Part shown: positions 12 through 7,451 of the stretch, in pieces
Position numbering within the stretch: position 1 is the first letter of the stretch
Layout: each line of letters starts with the position of its first letter
From: Candidatus Hydrogenedentes bacterium CG07_land_8_20_14_0_80_42_17
Lineage (GTDB): Bacteria; UBA8481
Reading direction: 5' to 3'
NCBI GenBank assembly: GCA_002780065.1
Contig: PEWQ01000060.1
Coordinates: 12,036-19,486 of the forward strand
Length of the DNA stretch: 7,451 bases
Notes under the pieces: model-generated
The model's database searches: none
What the model saw: only the letters and a program-made list of their open reading frames with translations
Told to the model about the DNA's origin: nothing
Position numbers and translations under genes: made by a program

Positions 12-863
12 GTGGCGTGTGATCTCATTCTGGTAAATTATGCTTCTGCGCTTGATGCTAAGACTGCGATATTATCTGCCAAACATTGTTTGAGACCGAT
101 ACTGAATCGAATTATTGTAATAGAGAATGGAACCGGAGAAGCTGAAGAATTTCGACGAATCGGGTGCGAAGTCATAGAATTTTCCGAGAACAAAGGTTTT
201 GCTTATGCCGTAAATGCCGGAATTTCTGCATCGTTGCGAAGCAAGCGCCCTTCGAAACATGTTATGCTCATTAATCCTGACGCATATCTTTTGCCGGGAC
301 CGTGGTTGAGATTTTTTTCATGGATTGTTCCGGAGGTTGCGGCCGCGGGGCCCGCAGTGTTGTCTATGAGCGGAGAGATTCAGGCTTCTGTTTATTCAGA
401 ACCTCAGCCGTTCAAAATAGTAATGGAATTGCTGGGGGCACAGAAAATAATTCGTTGCATAGGAATTAAGAGAAGTATGCCGATTTTGAATACTCAAGTA
501 GATACGCTTCAAGGCTCCTGCATTGTCATTTCGTTAAACGCTTGGAAAAAAATAGGACCGTTCGACGAAAACTTTTTTATGTATCATGAAGAGACGGATT
601 GGTGCCTAAGGGCTCGCGATGCGGGTTTCTACAATATCTACGATCCTTCTGTTTCAATTGTGCATAAAGGAGGAATTGAAGTTCCTTCAGGAAGAGAGCT
701 TATGTATTTTCGAAGTGCGGTTCATCTTGTTGCAAAACGACGAGGCGAATCGGAAGCTCAAAGACTGCGGAATAATTTGCGGCGCGCGGCAAGAATAAAA
801 AGTATTTTCGAATTCGATTCTCGACGCAAAGAGGCGCTTATCAGAGTAGGAATGGAGTTATGA
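12..863 (+). CDS. GT2-family glycosyltransferase, rhamnosyltransferase-like
   Basis: Predicted cytoplasmic GT-A enzyme that transfers a sugar from a nucleotide-sugar donor onto a growing glycan; donor and acceptor cannot be read from sequence. Visible GT2 landmarks are the first strand DLILVNYAS (residues 4-12), VIENG (36-40) where the family usually has VDNGS, NKGFAYAVNAG (60-70), the metal/nucleotide motif LINPDA (86-91), and the acceptor-side block GPFDENFFMYHEETDWCLRA (182-201). This set is typical of the WbbL/rhamnosyltransferase-like branch. The 283-residue length is normal, and no membrane segment is evident. The start taken is GTG at 12, two residues before the first strand. The frame stays open to the window edge, so a start slightly upstream cannot be excluded. 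The 3' end overlaps the next gene by ATGA, which implies translational coupling. The family call is secure; the specificity is not. Confidence 0.9.
   Translation: MACDLILVNYASALDAKTAILSAKHCLRPILNRIIVIENGTGEAEEFRRIGCEVIEFSENKGFAYAVNAGISASLRSKRPSKHVMLINPDAYLLPGPWLRFFSWIVPEVAAAGPAVLSMSGEIQASVYSEPQPFKIVMELLGAQKIIRCIGIKRSMPILNTQVDTLQGSCIVISLNAWKKIGPFDENFFMYHEETDWCLRARDAGFYNIYDPSVSIVHKGGIEVPSGRELMYFRSAVHLVAKRRGESEAQRLRNNLRRAARIKSIFEFDSRRKEALIRVGMEL
848..851 (+). promoter_or_regulatory. Ribosome binding site of the second glycosyltransferase
   Basis: AGGA lies 8 bases before the ATG at 860, inside the end of the preceding gene. A GGAG at 854-857 is too close to the ATG to serve. The site supports the start at 860 in the ATGA overlap. 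Confidence 0.55.
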
Positions 864-2101
864 TTTTATTCTGCATTTCAGCTTCGCTTTTAGCGTGGAA
901 CCTCGCAGGTTATCCGATTCTTCTTTTTGTTATCGCAAATAGAAAAAAAGATTTTGTTCAATTCAGAAAAAAAACGATACGCGATGTTTCTGTGCTTGTT
1001 GCGGCGCATAACGAAGAGACGTGCATCAAAGAGCGAGTCGAAAATTTAAAAGCGAATGGTTCGTGGAGAAATGTGGAAATAATTGTCGTTTCAGACGGCT
1101 CTACTGATAAGACCGCTGAACTTGCCGAGAAGGCGGGCGCTCACGTAATCGAAAAGGAAAGAGCCGGAAAAATTTCGGCGTTATACAAAGCTATTTCAGA
1201 ATCAAAAGGTGAAGCTTTAGTTGTCACAGATGCGAACACGATCTTCTTACCAGGCGCGATTGATTTGCTTGTTGATCCGTTGGAGGACACTCGAGTTGGA
1301 ATTACTGCAGGAGATTTAATTTTAGAGAACGATGATGAAACTGCATCGAGCAGAGGAGAATCAATTTATTGGAAGTATGAGACATGGATAAAGAGAAACG
1401 CGTCGAATGCCGGATTGCTTCTAATGGGGGCAGGCGGGATATATGCAGTTAGAAAAGAAAATTGGCCGATGAATATTCCTGCGGACACTGCTGACGATTC
1501 TTATGTTCCACTCTCTTTGCACAAAAACGGGTTTATGAATATTTTTGTTCCTGAGGCTAGAGCAAAAGAACGCGCGGGAACATTAATGAAAGAAGAATGG
1601 AACCGCAGAATAAGAATGGTTGCTCAGGACACGAAGGTTGCAGTAGCGCTCTCTTTCGGACTGCCGAACAAGAAAACATTTTTTGCTTTAGTTTCACAAA
1701 AAGTTCTGCGCTGGCTGATTTTGCCATTGGCAGTTATTTTTCTCATAACCTCAAGAGATGCCGCGAAAAAATTAGAGCGAATGAAAGGCATTATTAGGTT
1801 GGCTCATTTGCCTCTAAAAGCCGCACTGCCGATTACAGGAGCAATAATTATGGCCGGAGCAATTGCTGAACGAAGAGGAAAAAAAATATCCGGTGTGTCA
1901 GTTGCATTTTATTTTTTTGGAGCGGCAACAGCGGCATTTGCAGGTTTAATTTTTGGAATGCTGGGAAAATCTAATGCGATCTGGAACAAAGCGGATTCCA
2001 CGAGAAAAACTAATGGAGTTAACCTAAATCTTTTGCAACAACACAATGGTCTTCCTCATTCCCACCCCTTGTTGAAGGAAGAGGCGACTAATGGATACTG
2101 A
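860..2101 (+). CDS. Membrane-anchored processive-type GT2 glycosyltransferase
   Basis: Inner-membrane glycosyltransferase of the broad PgaC/IcaA/hyaluronan-synthase-like group, predicted to add sugars from a nucleotide donor at the cytoplasmic face. One N-terminal membrane helix (about 2-26) precedes the GT-A domain. Visible motifs are VAAHNEE (47-53), VVSDGSTD (76-83), TDANT (123-127) as the DxD-like site, GAGGIYAVRK (190-199), the acidic pair D212-D213, and RRIRMVAQ (249-256) in place of the QxxRW of cellulose synthases. About three hydrophobic segments follow (roughly 271-295, 311-335, 343-368). The product, perhaps a homopolymer or a single addition to a lipid-linked glycan, cannot be decided. 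The last roughly 30 residues (385-413) are polar and low in family character; they look like translated spacer (see findings). The gene overlaps its neighbours by 4 and 11 bp. Confidence 0.88.
   Translation: MILFCISASLLAWNLAGYPILLFVIANRKKDFVQFRKKTIRDVSVLVAAHNEETCIKERVENLKANGSWRNVEIIVVSDGSTDKTAELAEKAGAHVIEKERAGKISALYKAISESKGEALVVTDANTIFLPGAIDLLVDPLEDTRVGITAGDLILENDDETASSRGESIYWKYETWIKRNASNAGLLLMGAGGIYAVRKENWPMNIPADTADDSYVPLSLHKNGFMNIFVPEARAKERAGTLMKEEWNRRIRMVAQDTKVAVALSFGLPNKKTFFALVSQKVLRWLILPLAVIFLITSRDAAKKLERMKGIIRLAHLPLKAALPITGAIIMAGAIAERRGKKISGVSVAFYFFGAATAAFAGLIFGMLGKSNAIWNKADSTRKTNGVNLNLLQQHNGLPHSHPLLKEEATNGY
2075..2084 (+). promoter_or_regulatory. Strong ribosome binding site of the DUF2723-like gene
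   Basis: The purine-rich AAGGAAGAGG ends 6 bases before the ATG at 2091. It lies inside the preceding gene and fixes the start of the overlapping downstream gene. Confidence 0.7.
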
Positions 2102-3533
2102 CACAAAACAAAGCTTGCTGGATGCCGCAGTCATTGCAATAAGCGCTTTTGTGCTTTATTTGATCTTTCTGCTTCCAGGTGTTGCGTGGGGGAATTCTGC
2201 TTCGCTTCAAACTTATGCGATAACACTTGCCTCGCCAAATCCATCACTCTATGCGGGTTTTGATCTCCCTTCTGCTCCTTCTCCAATTTATGCGTATCCT
2301 GCTCATGTATGGACAAAAATTATATTGTTTGGAAATCCGGCATGGCGAATAAATTTATTTTCAGCTTTTCTTTCGGCTCTGACATTAGCTCTTCTGGTCA
2401 TGGCAGTGAGAAACATTTCAAGTTCAAGGCTAACCTCGACGTGCGCGGCAATTTCGCTGATCTTTTCGCATTCGTGGTTTCTGAATTCTGTTATTCCGGG
2501 AACAGCAATATTGGCTTCGTTTATTTTTATGGTGCAGATTTTTTTATCGATAAGAGCTTTGATGACAAGGTCAATAAAAGCGGAGTCGCTTTCTTATTGC
2601 ACGGCGCTTATCGGTGCGCTTCTCGCTCCACACAATGCTTTGGTATTTTTGCTTCCTGCGTTATATCTCTTCCTTTCCAGATTCGCCGCTTCGTTCTGGA
2701 TATTCACCGGCCTTTCGCTTGCAGGAATAGTTTTCAAATCGGCAACGTCCGACTTTAGTATTAATTCGTATCCGTTATTAATTATCTTCAGCTTATTTGA
2801 ATTTCCTGTTGTCGCATCGTTATTAATTTTATATGGAACTATGCATTTAAAAAAGCGAATGCCGGAGCTTTTGAAATTTCTTCTTCTCGCATGGATTGGT
2901 TCTGCTCCTGCCACAGGAGGAACAGATTTGATAGGACTATTTGCCGAGATGAATTCGGCTCTACTTGCGCTTAGTTTGCTCACAGGATGCGGAGTCGAGT
3001 ATCTGCATGCGAGGATGATACGAAAGGAAGATTTGAAGAGATGGTCAAATCCGATTCTTATCAGCATTGTCGTAATTTTACCGCTCGTTTCCACTGCGTT
3101 GACTGCATATATTTTCAGGCATACGAGATTGGATACTTACATTGCAATGAAAAATGAAAAGATTATTTTGCGGGATAACCCATGGTGCGATGCAACATGG
3201 TATGCTCTGTGGCCGATGAAAAACGGGGAGGGTGGTGAAAAGCTTCTTGCTGATGCGGAGAGAAAAATTCCAAGTGGGAGCGTGATTTTAGCGGATCCTG
3301 AGACTATGCCGGTTCTCGATTATGCGCGTCGGGTTGAAGGCCGGCTCAATAACATTTTACTTTTGAGCGCAGACATTGACGAACAGCTTCCGGAATTGAT
3401 GAGCCTTTCTCTGGAAGGAAGGCGAATATTTCTCGCAGGCATAGATTCAAGGTATTATGATGCAGTTGCGCTTGGGAAAATGGGCAACATAGAATCCAGC
3501 GCCGGTTTTTTTGAATGGACGATGAAGAAGTGA
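2091..3533 (+). CDS. DUF2723-like polytopic membrane protein, putative divergent GT-C glycosyltransferase
   Basis: Polytopic inner-membrane protein with roughly nine or ten hydrophobic segments and a soluble C-terminal part from about residue 345 that probably faces the periplasm. The N-terminus matches the DUF2723 pattern: a hydrophobic helix (9-29), then WGNSAS (33-38) where the family has a W-x-D-S-G-E-like motif, then GNPAWRINLFSA (81-92), a clear DUF2723 signature. A late stretch, SVILADPETMPVLDYARRVE (397-416), resembles the family's 'D.dTfpl.Y.q.veg' region. DUF2723 includes the eukaryotic O-mannosyltransferase TMEM260, so a transferase using a lipid-linked sugar is the natural guess. 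The acidic residues of the first loop are absent here (N35 and S38), so activity is uncertain. At 480 residues it is shorter than many family members. It overlaps the preceding gene by 11 bp and carries a good ribosome binding site. Membership is likely; function is inferred. Confidence 0.72.
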   Translation: MDTDTKQSLLDAAVIAISAFVLYLIFLLPGVAWGNSASLQTYAITLASPNPSLYAGFDLPSAPSPIYAYPAHVWTKIILFGNPAWRINLFSAFLSALTLALLVMAVRNISSSRLTSTCAAISLIFSHSWFLNSVIPGTAILASFIFMVQIFLSIRALMTRSIKAESLSYCTALIGALLAPHNALVFLLPALYLFLSRFAASFWIFTGLSLAGIVFKSATSDFSINSYPLLIIFSLFEFPVVASLLILYGTMHLKKRMPELLKFLLLAWIGSAPATGGTDLIGLFAEMNSALLALSLLTGCGVEYLHARMIRKEDLKRWSNPILISIVVILPLVSTALTAYIFRHTRLDTYIAMKNEKIILRDNPWCDATWYALWPMKNGEGGEKLLADAERKIPSGSVILADPETMPVLDYARRVEGRLNNILLLSADIDEQLPELMSLSLEGRRIFLAGIDSRYYDAVALGKMGNIESSAGFFEWTMKK

Positions 3534-3587: not shown

Positions 3588-5423
3588 ATGAAGAGACTTG
3601 TCATTATAATTTTCGATGCCGCAGGAATAGCTTCGGCCTTAATTATCGCGGCGGCAGTTCGATTCGACGCGAACATTCCTCCAGAAGAATTAAAACTCAT
3701 AATGCTTTCTATGCCGGCGGTCATAATTGGAAAGCTTGTTGCACTGATGCTGTTTCATTGCGATCAGTGGTCATTCAAATATGCAGGTTCTATGGAGCTT
3801 CGGAGACTTCTCGCGGCGCTCTCTCTGGGCTCTCTGCTTGGCTGGGCATTTACTTATCTAGTGGGGCCGGACGGCACTTCTCGGGCAGTATTGCTTCTTG
3901 AACCGCTCTTTTCGCTCTTCCTTTTAGGGGCGTTCAGGTTCGGACTGAGGCTGTTGCCGGACAGAATCCCTGCAATAGCTGAAGATCAACCGGGCGCTCG
4001 CAAGGTCATCATCATAGGCGCAGGCGATGCCGGTGTAATAACTCTGAAAGAGATACGAAGGCATCCGAACTCCGATATGGTTGTTGTCGGATTTATCGAT
4101 GACGATCCAAAAAAACACGGGCTGTGGATTGATGGAGTTCGAGTAATTGGCGGGCGAAACGAGATTTCATCCGCGGTGAAATCTCTAAGTGTTGACGAAT
4201 TGATTATCGCAATTCCTTCTGCCGGCGGTGAAACCATCAGGGAGCTAATTGACGCATGTCGGGAGGTAAAAACCCGTTTCAGAGTTGTGCCTGGACTGCT
4301 GTCGATTATTAAAGGAACGGTAACTTTTTCCAGAATCAGAGAAATTAAACCAGAGGATCTTTTGGGACGAGAGACCACAGAAATCGAGCCTGAACTTTTC
4401 AGAAAAGATTTTGACGGAAAAAAAGTTCTCGTCACCGGAGCTGGAGGTTCGATTGGCTCTGAGCTTTGTCGGCAACTCAATTACTCCGGGGCTGAATTGA
4501 TTCTGCTCGATCATTCCGAATCGGCTATCTATTCCATAGACAGCGAATTGAGGAGCAAGGGTCACGGTAAAATTATCAGCTTCATTGCGGATTTGAGAAC
4601 CCAAGAGAGAATAGAAGAGATAATCAGCACAGAAAAACCTGATTATGTTTTTCACGCGGCGGCATTCAAGCATGTTCCGCTTATGGAGGAGAACATATTC
4701 GAGGCTGTGACGACTAATATAATCGGAACAAAGAATCTTGCAGAGTCGTCGTTCAGGCACGGAGTGAAAAGGTTTACGTTCATTTCTACGGACAAAGCTG
4801 TTCGACCTACAAGCGTAATGGGCGCGACGAAACGAGCGGCTGAGATGTGGCTTTTCTCGAATGACTGGGAGCGAGTTGAAAATAAAATGTCAGTATCAGC
4901 AGTCAGGTTTGGAAATGTTTTAGGATCGAGCGGATCAGTTGTGCCGCTCTTCAGAAAGCAGATTGAGAGCGGCGGGCCGGTCACTGTGACTCATCCGAAT
5001 GTCGTCAGATTTTTCATGACGATTCCTGAGGCAGTTTTTCTTGTGATACACGCTTCTTTACTTGGAGATCTACACGACTTATTTGTGCTCGAAATGGGAC
5101 AGCCGATCAGGATTCTGGATCTAGCGAAGAATATGATAACACTTGCCGGGCTGAGGCCTGAGACAGATATTCCATTGCGGTTTACAGGTCTTCGACCTGG
5201 AGAAAAACTTTATGAAGAAGTTTTGACTGATGGTGAAGATGTATCGCCTACCGAAATAAAAAAGGTTTTTCGAATTGGCCGCCACAATGAAATATCGAAT
5301 GACTTTCCTAAAATGTTTGATGAACTTATTGCCAATGCCAGACCGGGTCGAAATGAAGTTTTGAAGGAATTGATTTGCCGTATAGTTCCGGATTTTCATC
5401 CGGATTTAATGCGCAGGGAGTAA
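3588..5423 (+). CDS. Membrane nucleotide-sugar 4,6-dehydratase, CapD/WbpM/PglF type
   Basis: Predicted to convert a UDP-HexNAc, most likely UDP-GlcNAc, to the 4-keto-6-deoxy sugar, the first step toward rare sugars such as bacillosamine, QuiNAc or FucNAc. The 611-residue length is usual for the large membrane form. Four N-terminal membrane helices lie at about 4-26, 39-59, 73-92 and 98-118. Next comes a Rossmann domain with IIGAGDAG (142-149) and VGFIDDDP, then the catalytic SDR domain with VTGAGGSIGSEL (282-293), FISTDKA (398-404) and SVMGATKR (409-416). Met411 sits where classical SDRs have Tyr, followed by Lys415; the Thr-Asp-Lys at 401-403 is intact. This Met form is the hallmark of PglF/WbpM-like enzymes. 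The typical C-terminal blocks RFGNVLGSSGSVVPLF and TGLRPGEKLYEE are present. It shares its N-terminal architecture with the next gene. The class is very secure; the exact sugar is not determined. Confidence 0.95.
   Translation: MKRLVIIIFDAAGIASALIIAAAVRFDANIPPEELKLIMLSMPAVIIGKLVALMLFHCDQWSFKYAGSMELRRLLAALSLGSLLGWAFTYLVGPDGTSRAVLLLEPLFSLFLLGAFRFGLRLLPDRIPAIAEDQPGARKVIIIGAGDAGVITLKEIRRHPNSDMVVVGFIDDDPKKHGLWIDGVRVIGGRNEISSAVKSLSVDELIIAIPSAGGETIRELIDACREVKTRFRVVPGLLSIIKGTVTFSRIREIKPEDLLGRETTEIEPELFRKDFDGKKVLVTGAGGSIGSELCRQLNYSGAELILLDHSESAIYSIDSELRSKGHGKIISFIADLRTQERIEEIISTEKPDYVFHAAAFKHVPLMEENIFEAVTTNIIGTKNLAESSFRHGVKRFTFISTDKAVRPTSVMGATKRAAEMWLFSNDWERVENKMSVSAVRFGNVLGSSGSVVPLFRKQIESGGPVTVTHPNVVRFFMTIPEAVFLVIHASLLGDLHDLFVLEMGQPIRILDLAKNMITLAGLRPETDIPLRFTGLRPGEKLYEEVLTDGEDVSPTEIKKVFRIGRHNEISNDFPKMFDELIANARPGRNEVLKELICRIVPDFHPDLMRRE
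5415..5420 (+). promoter_or_regulatory. Probable ribosome binding site of the sugar transferase
   Basis: AGGGAG overlaps the last codons of the dehydratase and ends 12 bases before the ATG at 5433. The spacing is somewhat long. It is the best Shine-Dalgarno-like match near this start, and the in-frame TAA at 5421 rules out any earlier start. Confidence 0.45.
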
Positions 5424-5432
5424 TTTAAGTTA

Positions 5433-6698
5433 ATGAAATCACTCCGAGGGCTTAACTCGATAATAGGCCTCATCTTTGATGCCGCAGTAGTTTACTTAGG
5501 AATCTCATCTGCGATATTTTTTAGATTCGGGAATGAAATTCCGGAACTTGACAGAGCTGTTTTGACTTTTGTGATTCCAACGATTTTTTTAACTCGGCTC
5601 GGCGCTTTTTATGCGGCGGGAATATACAGGCGGTCTTTTATACACCCGAGAATTTTCGATTATTCCGATATGCTTCAGGCATGGGCATCAGGAACAGTTA
5701 TTTTGGTGGCAGTGATATTTTTCGGAAGAGTGCTTGAAACCTCCCGCTTGTTTCTTGTTTACGAAGCAATTGCAAATTTTATTTTGGCGACAGGATGGCG
5801 CGCGGCATTCTCTGTTTGGGGAAGAAGAGTCGCGCCTGTACGTAAAGCTGTTTTTGTCGGATCGGGATTAGACATAGAGCGTCTGAATTTTTTTCTTGAA
5901 AGAGAAGGATGGGAATTCAGAATCAGCCGTTCCGTTTCACCTGAAGAATGGGAAAGGGGAGACGAAGAAATTCTGATTGTCAGAACGGACGACGCAAATC
6001 CCGGTTTGATTGCTAAAGCTGTTGGCATGGACATAGTGGCGATAGCGGGCATGAGTGAAATTCTGCTTTCGGGCGCAACGCCGATTCAGCTTGGAGGTAC
6101 GGTCTTTCTTGAAACTCGAGGAGTACGAAACGACCGACACTATCTTGCAGCGAAACGCTCGTTTGATATTGTAGCCGCGACATTTGGGCTTATTTTATTT
6201 TCACCTCTAATTATTCTCATATCCATGGCAATCAAGCTGACTTCGAAAGGGTCTGTGTTTTTCATTCAAAAAAGAGTTGGAATAAGAGGTAAGGAATTCA
6301 GGATAATAAAATTTCGAACCATGCGGAGTGGAAGCAAGGGGCCGGGAAGAACTGAAGAGAACGACAGCCGTGTGACTTCTTTCGGCAGATTTTTGCGATT
6401 ATGGTCGCTTGATGAATTGCCTCAATTACTGAATGTGTTAATTGGAAACATGTCCATCGTTGGTCCGAGACCGGAGATACTTGAGGTTGTCGAGAAGTGG
6501 AGTGAATGGCGCAAACAGGTATTGATGGTTCAACCTGGAATTACAGGGCTGGTGCAGGTTTTAGGAAGAGATGAATTATCCGAGGAAGAGAAGGAACGAC
6601 TCGATCTTTTTTATGCAATGAACCGTTCGCTCGAAATGGACGTATCGATAATTCTGAGAACGCTACGCTCCATTGTGAAGTATCGAGGCAGAGCATAG
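5433..6698 (+). CDS. Undecaprenyl-phosphate sugar-1-phosphate transferase, WbaP/WcaJ type
   Basis: Predicted initiating enzyme that moves a sugar-1-phosphate from a nucleotide sugar to a polyprenyl phosphate at the inner membrane, starting glycan assembly. Four N-terminal hydrophobic segments lie at about 9-32, 43-65, 84-98 and 105-123. A middle region begins at about residue 137 with AVFVGSG, a degenerate Rossmann-type entry. The C-terminal bacterial sugar transferase domain starts at KRSFDI (241-246), followed by the hydrophobic helix with a central Pro258. It then shows QKRVG (279-283), KFRTM (293-297), the catalytic Asp-Glu pair in SLDELPQLLNVL (325-336; D327, E328), and MSIVGPRPE (340-348). 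At 421 residues it is slightly short for the long form, because the middle domain is reduced. It is encoded 9 bp after the dehydratase, consistent with the two acting in sequence. The sugar could be a hexose or the dehydratase-derived HexNAc; sequence alone does not say. Confidence 0.94.
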   Translation: MKSLRGLNSIIGLIFDAAVVYLGISSAIFFRFGNEIPELDRAVLTFVIPTIFLTRLGAFYAAGIYRRSFIHPRIFDYSDMLQAWASGTVILVAVIFFGRVLETSRLFLVYEAIANFILATGWRAAFSVWGRRVAPVRKAVFVGSGLDIERLNFFLEREGWEFRISRSVSPEEWERGDEEILIVRTDDANPGLIAKAVGMDIVAIAGMSEILLSGATPIQLGGTVFLETRGVRNDRHYLAAKRSFDIVAATFGLILFSPLIILISMAIKLTSKGSVFFIQKRVGIRGKEFRIIKFRTMRSGSKGPGRTEENDSRVTSFGRFLRLWSLDELPQLLNVLIGNMSIVGPRPEILEVVEKWSEWRKQVLMVQPGITGLVQVLGRDELSEEEKERLDLFYAMNRSLEMDVSIILRTLRSIVKYRGRA

Positions 6699-6917: not shown

Positions 6918-7451
6918 TTACCTTCTAATCTTCAACTCTTTTTCGTCGATTATTATTTTACCTTTATTATTGTTGAAGCTGATGCTCTTGATTAAATCCC
7001 AGTGAAGCGCGGAAACATTTTTGCCTCGGCATTCTTTGTATGCCGAACCCAAAGCGAGATGAATTGTTCCGCCGATCTTCTCATCAAACAAAATCTCTTT
7101 TGTTGGAACTTTTATTCCGAAATTTGTGCCGATTCCAAATTCGCCAAGCCTTCTCGAACCTGAATCGGTGTCGAGCATCTTATTCAGGTAATCTTCTCCA
7201 CGGTCGGCATGTGCCTCTACAACTTGCCCCTTCTTGAATACTAATCTTACACCTTCGACAAGATGACCATCTCGAGCGGTGGGAATGTCAAAATAGATTT
7301 TGCCCTCGGTAGAAGTTTCTACCGGCGCAGTGAAGATTTCGCCGCTTGGTAAATTTTGAGTCGCTTCCGAATTTACAAACAACCTGCCCTTTACTGAAAA
7401 AGATAGATCAGTATCTTCTCCGATAATTCTTACCTGTTTTGCATTGCCGAT
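6918..7451 (-). CDS. M29-family metallo-aminopeptidase, C-terminal part, truncated by the window edge
   Basis: This is the last 177 codons of a cytoplasmic dinuclear-metal aminopeptidase of the AmpS/PepS/aminopeptidase T family, which removes N-terminal residues from peptides. The frame is open to base 7451, so the N-terminal half, including the true start, lies outside; full family members run to about 370-410 residues. Counting from the window edge, the fragment begins with DTDLSFSVKGR (13-23). It then shows NLPSGEIFTAPVE with Glu38, RRLGEFGIGTN with Glu104, FDEKIGGTIHLALGSAY with His131 and Tyr138, and SALHWDLI with His150 and Asp152. These are the conserved metal-binding and catalytic positions of the family, all intact. 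A TTG at 7382 could be taken as a start, but the family match runs straight through it. The gene converges on the glycan operon and has no evident link to it. Confidence 0.93.
   Translation of the reverse strand: MGNAKQVRIIGEDTDLSFSVKGRLFVNSEATQNLPSGEIFTAPVETSTEGKIYFDIPTARDGHLVEGVRLVFKKGQVVEAHADRGEDYLNKMLDTDSGSRRLGEFGIGTNFGIKVPTKEILFDEKIGGTIHLALGSAYKECRGKNVSALHWDLIKSISFNNNKGKIIIDEKELKIRR

Follow-up and report, generated by a model that had tools for sequence, protein, structure and literature searches.

A divergent TMEM260-like protein lacking the GT-C catalytic acids, a probable pseudoenzyme, in a glycan operon of Candidatus Hydrogenedentes

Members of the TMEM260-like family (Pfam PF11028, formerly DUF2723) have a GT-C fold, and eukaryotic TMEM260 is classified as CAZy GT117. 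In GT-C enzymes, the tip of the first juxtamembrane helix (JM1) carries the aspartate that serves as catalytic base (PMC12041525), and a first-loop aspartate is present in all surveyed GT-C/PMT-clan transferases of known structure (PMC7801869). The loop of TMTC that matches the external loop between TM7 and TM8 is described as critical for both catalysis and binding of the lipid-linked sugar (PMC7801869). When catalytic GT-C proteins are encoded in polysaccharide operons of the kind described here, they usually add sugars in the periplasm as part of a three-component system (PMC11127046).

By default, any GT-C protein is annotated as a glycosyltransferase. PIGU is a GT-C-fold protein in which the DxD acidic motif is replaced by SSW, and it makes up the GPI transamidase scaffold together with PIGT (PMC12653191). 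In the bacterial Wzx/Wzy pathway, the pseudokinase EcpK acts as a scaffold (PMC12004946). Full-text searches for DUF2723 and for GT-C pseudoenzymes found no paper in the literature collection covered.

The protein described here (P0001) is encoded in Candidatus Hydrogenedentes bacterium CG07_land_8_20_14_0_80_42_17 on contig PEWQ01000060.1, within a 7,451-nt stretch of DNA that was analysed as a whole and is called the window (Table 1). Its gene belongs to an eight-gene operon on the + strand, which in contig order encodes a GT4, a Wzy_C-TPR protein, a second GT4, a GT2, a membrane GT2, the 480-aa protein, a CapD-like protein and a priming transferase. The operon spans positions 7750-18733 of locus L013, and the window covers its end. 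The Wzy_C domain (O-antigen ligase/polymerase) fused to TPR repeats is encoded upstream of the window (L013, 8937-10877) and is a possible partner of the GT-C protein. Neither a Wzx flippase nor a visible dedicated polyprenyl-P-sugar three-component set was found in the operon; PF01943 flippase-family proteins are encoded on other contigs of both genomes compared below. Catalytic landmarks are intact in the remaining enzymes of the operon; in the second genome, two of the regular expressions used for these motifs, one each for the priming transferase and GT2, had no match. The start codon of the 480-aa ORF lies within the end of the upstream membrane GT2 gene.

Table 1. Features of the window (positions in nt; residue numbers refer to the 480-aa protein).
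Feature	Position	Strand	Basis or remark
GT2 glycosyltransferase, rhamnosyltransferase-like	12..863	+	operon member
GT2 membrane glycosyltransferase	860..2101	+	operon member; orthologue 52 % identical
Shine-Dalgarno-like ribosome-binding site AAGGAAGAGG	2075..2084	+	precedes 480-aa ORF
GT-C pseudoenzyme candidate, divergent relative of TMEM260-like/DUF2723	2091..3533	+	480 aa; ORF, hhalign, fold
WGNSAS, residues 33-38, site of the family G-D-S-G/A-E motif	2187..2204	+	alignment, helix position
N35 (catalytic-base position)	2193-2195	+	
S38 (second acid position)	2202-2204	+	
Residues 49-70, Pro-rich loop replacing HPPGYPLY, ~10 residues longer, holds D58 (2262-2264)	2235..2300	+	alignment
RINLFSA (86-92), kept family landmark R-x-N-L-x-S-A	2346..2366	+	alignment
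G137, where the family has the conserved glutamate of the second loop (AEVY)	2499..2501	+	alignment
Residues 216-223, external loop between TM7 and TM8, shortened (binds the donor in GT-C enzymes)	2736..2759	+	models, alignment
C-terminal external alpha/beta domain, ~356-480	3156..3530	+	common to L044-type catalytic short relatives and orthologue
CapD-like membrane nucleotide-sugar dehydratase/epimerase	3588..5423	+	motifs intact; orthologue 59 % identical
Priming polyprenyl-phosphate sugar-phosphate transferase (Bac_transf, TIGR03025)	5433..6698	+	motifs intact

The 480-aa protein is a divergent homologue of the TMEM260-like/DUF2723 family, despite a sub-threshold Pfam score. Against PF11028 it reached 10.7 bits (E 0.44), below the cut-off of 24.2, and an NCBIfam search gave no match. 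BLAST retrieved accepted family members at E 7e-14, for example L004, which itself scores 108 bits for PF11028. Also at E 7e-14, the Eisenbacteria protein L044 (JAHFBX010000121.1; PF11028 62 bits, PMT_2 49 bits) aligned to residues 10-463 with 25 % identity. When the sequence was compared by hhalign with a profile of eleven family members, the match extended over residues 13-427 (99.6 %, E 2.2e-24). An AlphaFold2 model (pTM 0.84, mean pLDDT 77.6) has the GT-C fold with juxtamembrane helices in the first external loop (EL1), and it matched the known structures of STT3A, PglB, ArnT and Pmt4 with Z scores of 24.5, 23.8, 22.8 and 22.2 respectively; the alignment behind the model included catalytic relatives, so the model alone is unable to show a change in the pocket. 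Thus, the description of the protein as clearly DUF2723 in the first-pass annotation holds for homology, by BLAST, profile-profile comparison and fold, and does not hold by the Pfam standard; of the profile and structure searches that it had proposed, the former missed the Pfam cut-off and the GT-C fold match succeeded. A PDB sequence search and a search of viral contigs revealed no relative, and PHROGs and PADLOC searches gave nothing useful. The protein shares with TMEM260-like proteins homology over nearly the whole length, the GT-C fold, the RxNLxSA landmark and the start of the C-terminal external domain, whereas the D/E dyad, HPPGYP, the second-loop glutamate and the donor loop are gone. 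L044, which is encoded in a polysaccharide gene cluster, resembles it in full-length alignment, helix order, short C-terminal domain and glycan context, but retains WGDDAEL, the AEVY glutamate and a TM7-TM8 loop of 23 residues, compared with 8 here.

At the first-loop site, the family consensus is G-D-S-G/A-E-L. The aspartate, present in 64 of 64 aligned homologues and in 62 of 62 picked by pattern, is replaced by N35, and the second acid, which is E or D in 62 of the 64 and K in two, is replaced by S38. Loss of both acids had been noted on first reading, and the positions then given for WGNSAS, for the landmark at residues 81-92 (GNPAWRINLFSA) and for the Pro-rich region were exact; the late block is likewise present, as VILADPETMPVLDY at residues 398-411. 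In the models, N35 starts helix 35-45, the first juxtamembrane helix, as D41 starts helix 41-51 in L044; the tip of JM1 therefore carries N35 and not the catalytic aspartate. One of the two scan patterns encodes the aspartate column as [DN], and because the scan pattern covers this column the count was redone on loci from whole-genome searches. The aspartate was present in 54 of 54 such loci that align at the site, the sole exception being the 480-aa protein itself. The pattern scan was run with alignment A6, A3 and A5 having diverged too far to serve.

The HPPGYP motif is also absent, with N50 where 52 of 53 relatives have H and L53 where 52 of 53 have G. The suggestion that this region had become a longer Pro-rich loop agrees with the spacing from W33 to R86, which is 53 residues here and 42-48 in the 53 relatives. 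Two further losses had escaped the first-pass annotation. The second-loop glutamate of the AEVY motif, conserved in 59 of 61 aligned homologues (51 of 53 relatives), is G137, and the TM7-TM8 external loop sits in a segment, P189 to P239, that is only 50 residues long here, whereas the 53 relatives have at least 76 (median 102); the helices otherwise correspond one-to-one in the models of this protein and L044. The retained positions, P29, G81, R86, N88, S91, G175 and G249, look mostly structural, and H181 is also retained.

The only other genome of the phylum that was compared, G001, belongs to the same order and a different family and carries all eight operon genes in unchanged order. The orthologue at this position, L003, reads WGREAAL, so that D is replaced by R and E by A; its second-loop glutamate is V, and its equivalent of P189-P239 has 48 residues. 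The acidic pair is therefore absent from both proteins in the same context. N35 and S38, whose conservation had been proposed as a check, are themselves not conserved, the orthologue beside the CapD-like and priming transferase genes having R and A. L003 also lacks RxNLxSA and H181, both kept in the window protein. It matched the family only weakly when compared alone by hhalign (85 %) and had no match to PF11028; in a quick tree with long branches, that of L003 being very long, the two proteins clustered together (SH-aLRT 93). A profile built from the two sequences gave full-length matches only in these two genomes among 386; 16 other genomes matched weakly (E 2e-5 to 8e-4) and partially, mostly in columns 82-226.

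Both genomes also encode a catalytic DUF2723 paralogue (L001, 1390-3219, G000:C85, and L129, G001:C103), and both of these proteins keep EDSAEL..HAPGYPLY. Since the orthologue shares the losses while neighbouring enzymes and catalytic paralogues keep their motifs, the losses, documented in two sequences only, affect this protein specifically and probably go back to an ancestor of both genomes. A sequencing or frame error was rejected as their cause because an independent genome carries the same losses. In some relatives the second acid alone is lost and D is kept, as in L005 (G021, WGDSAKL), L092 (G393, WQDSALF), L066 (GDVAKF) and L086 (GDTPKF), which shows that some family members can do without the second acid; these D-keeping DUF2723 relatives represent a milder step of the same erosion. 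The 47 genomes of the Eisenbacteria phylum contained catalytic short relatives (L044, L092) and no D-lacking one in the loci read. Within everything examined, the loss of D thus appears confined to the lineage of the window protein.

Because the catalytic acids and the donor loop are lost both here and in the orthologue, the 480-aa protein is probably a structural or binding partner and not an enzyme. The favoured reading, which we consider probable, is a GT-C pseudoenzyme retained in Wzy-type glycan assembly, either as a scaffold in the membrane or as a subunit that binds lipid-glycan. The first-pass annotation had listed a non-catalytic paralogue, with a scaffold or similar function, among its alternatives, and this is the one favoured here. 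Neither finding that it had named as refuting came about: the profile and fold matches to DUF2723/GT-C are significant, and the orthologue in the same context lacks the acidic pair. The protein would descend from an active DUF2723/TMEM260-like glycosyltransferase such as polysaccharide clusters encode. The catalytic base D, the partner acid, HPPGYP, the second-loop glutamate and half of the donor-loop region would have been lost before the two lineages diverged, and GT-CA-type sugar transfer from polyprenyl-phosphate donors would have ceased. The losses strongly suggest that the present protein would carry out no polyprenyl-phosphate sugar transfer by the usual GT-C mechanism, and the three-component role of periplasmic sugar addition seems to have been lost. 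The gene would have been kept for a membrane bundle and a C-terminal external domain that may bind or display a component of Wzy-type glycan assembly. The likeliest candidates are the lipid-linked glycan itself and an enzyme encoded nearby, for example the Wzy_C-TPR protein or the membrane GT2. More cautiously, and by analogy with known scaffolds, the protein may be proposed to act within the glycan machinery as a scaffold or to hold lipid-glycan there. Several points speak against a pseudoenzyme: the losses are seen in two sequences, of which L003 is very divergent; RxNLxSA and H181 are kept, which a fully dead enzyme would not need; and some acid remains, namely D367.

The main rival is a rebuilt and still active GT-C transferase that uses another acid (D58 or D367) or no general base, which we regard as unlikely. 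It would agree with the retention of the gene in the operon, with the preserved RxNLxSA and H181, and with the EL1 of L003, which is longer and rich in acids. However, the acids common to both orthologues are D4 (E in the other), E303 and D367, together with several C-terminal-domain residues, and none is shared in EL1, EL2 or the TM7-TM8 loop (EL4). D58, which had been put forward as a replacement catalytic acid, aligns with W in L003 and sits in the lowest-confidence loop of the model (pLDDT <50 at residues 49-60); this candidate was found to be unsupported. D367, in the external region, is common to the orthologue and the catalytic relatives, which may favour an active enzyme; these relatives have the normal D as well, and D367 is thus more likely to be structural or acceptor-related than a new base. 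The donor loop is short in both orthologues, surveyed GT-C/PMT-clan structures all have the first-loop aspartate (PMC7801869), and the operon is without a visible three-component set, all of which argue against a rebuilt transferase.

A decaying or relaxed gene, carried along in the operon with no present role, would explain why this is the fastest-diverging gene of the eight. The window protein and L003 are 27.9 % identical, the lowest value among the operon pairs, compared with 59.2 % for CapD, 51.6 % for the membrane GT2, 46.9 % for the priming transferase, 46.4 and 42.9 % for the two GT4s, 37.9 % for GT2 and 33.5 % for Wzy; the pair of catalytic paralogues (38.1 % identical) also diverged more slowly. 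In 100 simulated runs, neutral drift to 28 % identity introduced a mean of 20 stop codons and a minimum of 10, whereas the real frames, of 480 and about 517 codons in the identical operon slot across two families, are both open, which indicates that the gene is still selected. The ribosome-binding site, the start-stop overlap, the helices and the C-terminal domain are likewise kept, and simple decay is improbable, as had been argued earlier from the strong ribosome-binding site and intact frame. Least probable, and very doubtful, is a flippase-like translocase of lipid-linked glycans derived from the GT-C bundle. The operon has a priming transferase, glycosyltransferases and a Wzy_C protein but no Wzx, which would leave room for such a function; against it stand the PF01943 proteins elsewhere in both genomes, and GT-C bundles are not known to act as flippases.

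The pseudoenzyme reading has a more specific and only tentative form, in which the 480-aa protein would be to bacteria what PIGU is to eukaryotes. As an obligate GT-C subunit, without catalytic activity since before the split, it would join the membrane GT2 and/or the Wzy_C-TPR protein and hold a lipid-linked glycan in a surface-glycan pathway. Both proteins have a GT-C fold (Z 15.6 to 7w72_U) and a replaced acidic motif in the first loop, SSW in PIGU and WGNSAS here. In contrast, PIGU is eukaryotic, belongs to another GT-C lineage and has known complex partners, and the resemblance seen between the two is one of fold and replaced motif. The tyrosine pseudokinases EcpK and HfsB of Wzx/Wzy pathways are similar in that a dead enzyme homologue is retained in a bacterial polysaccharide pathway, although their fold is unrelated and their partner is a polysaccharide co-polymerase. 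If the pseudoenzyme reading is true, bacteria can also put GT-C bundles to non-catalytic use, here in building the envelope, much as eukaryotes have done with PIGU, and the absence of the first-loop D combined with a short TM7-TM8 loop would be a signature for finding others.

Beyond the end of the operon, and facing it, the minus strand of the window (6918-7451) encodes the C-terminal part of an M29 aminopeptidase, which is cut by the contig end.
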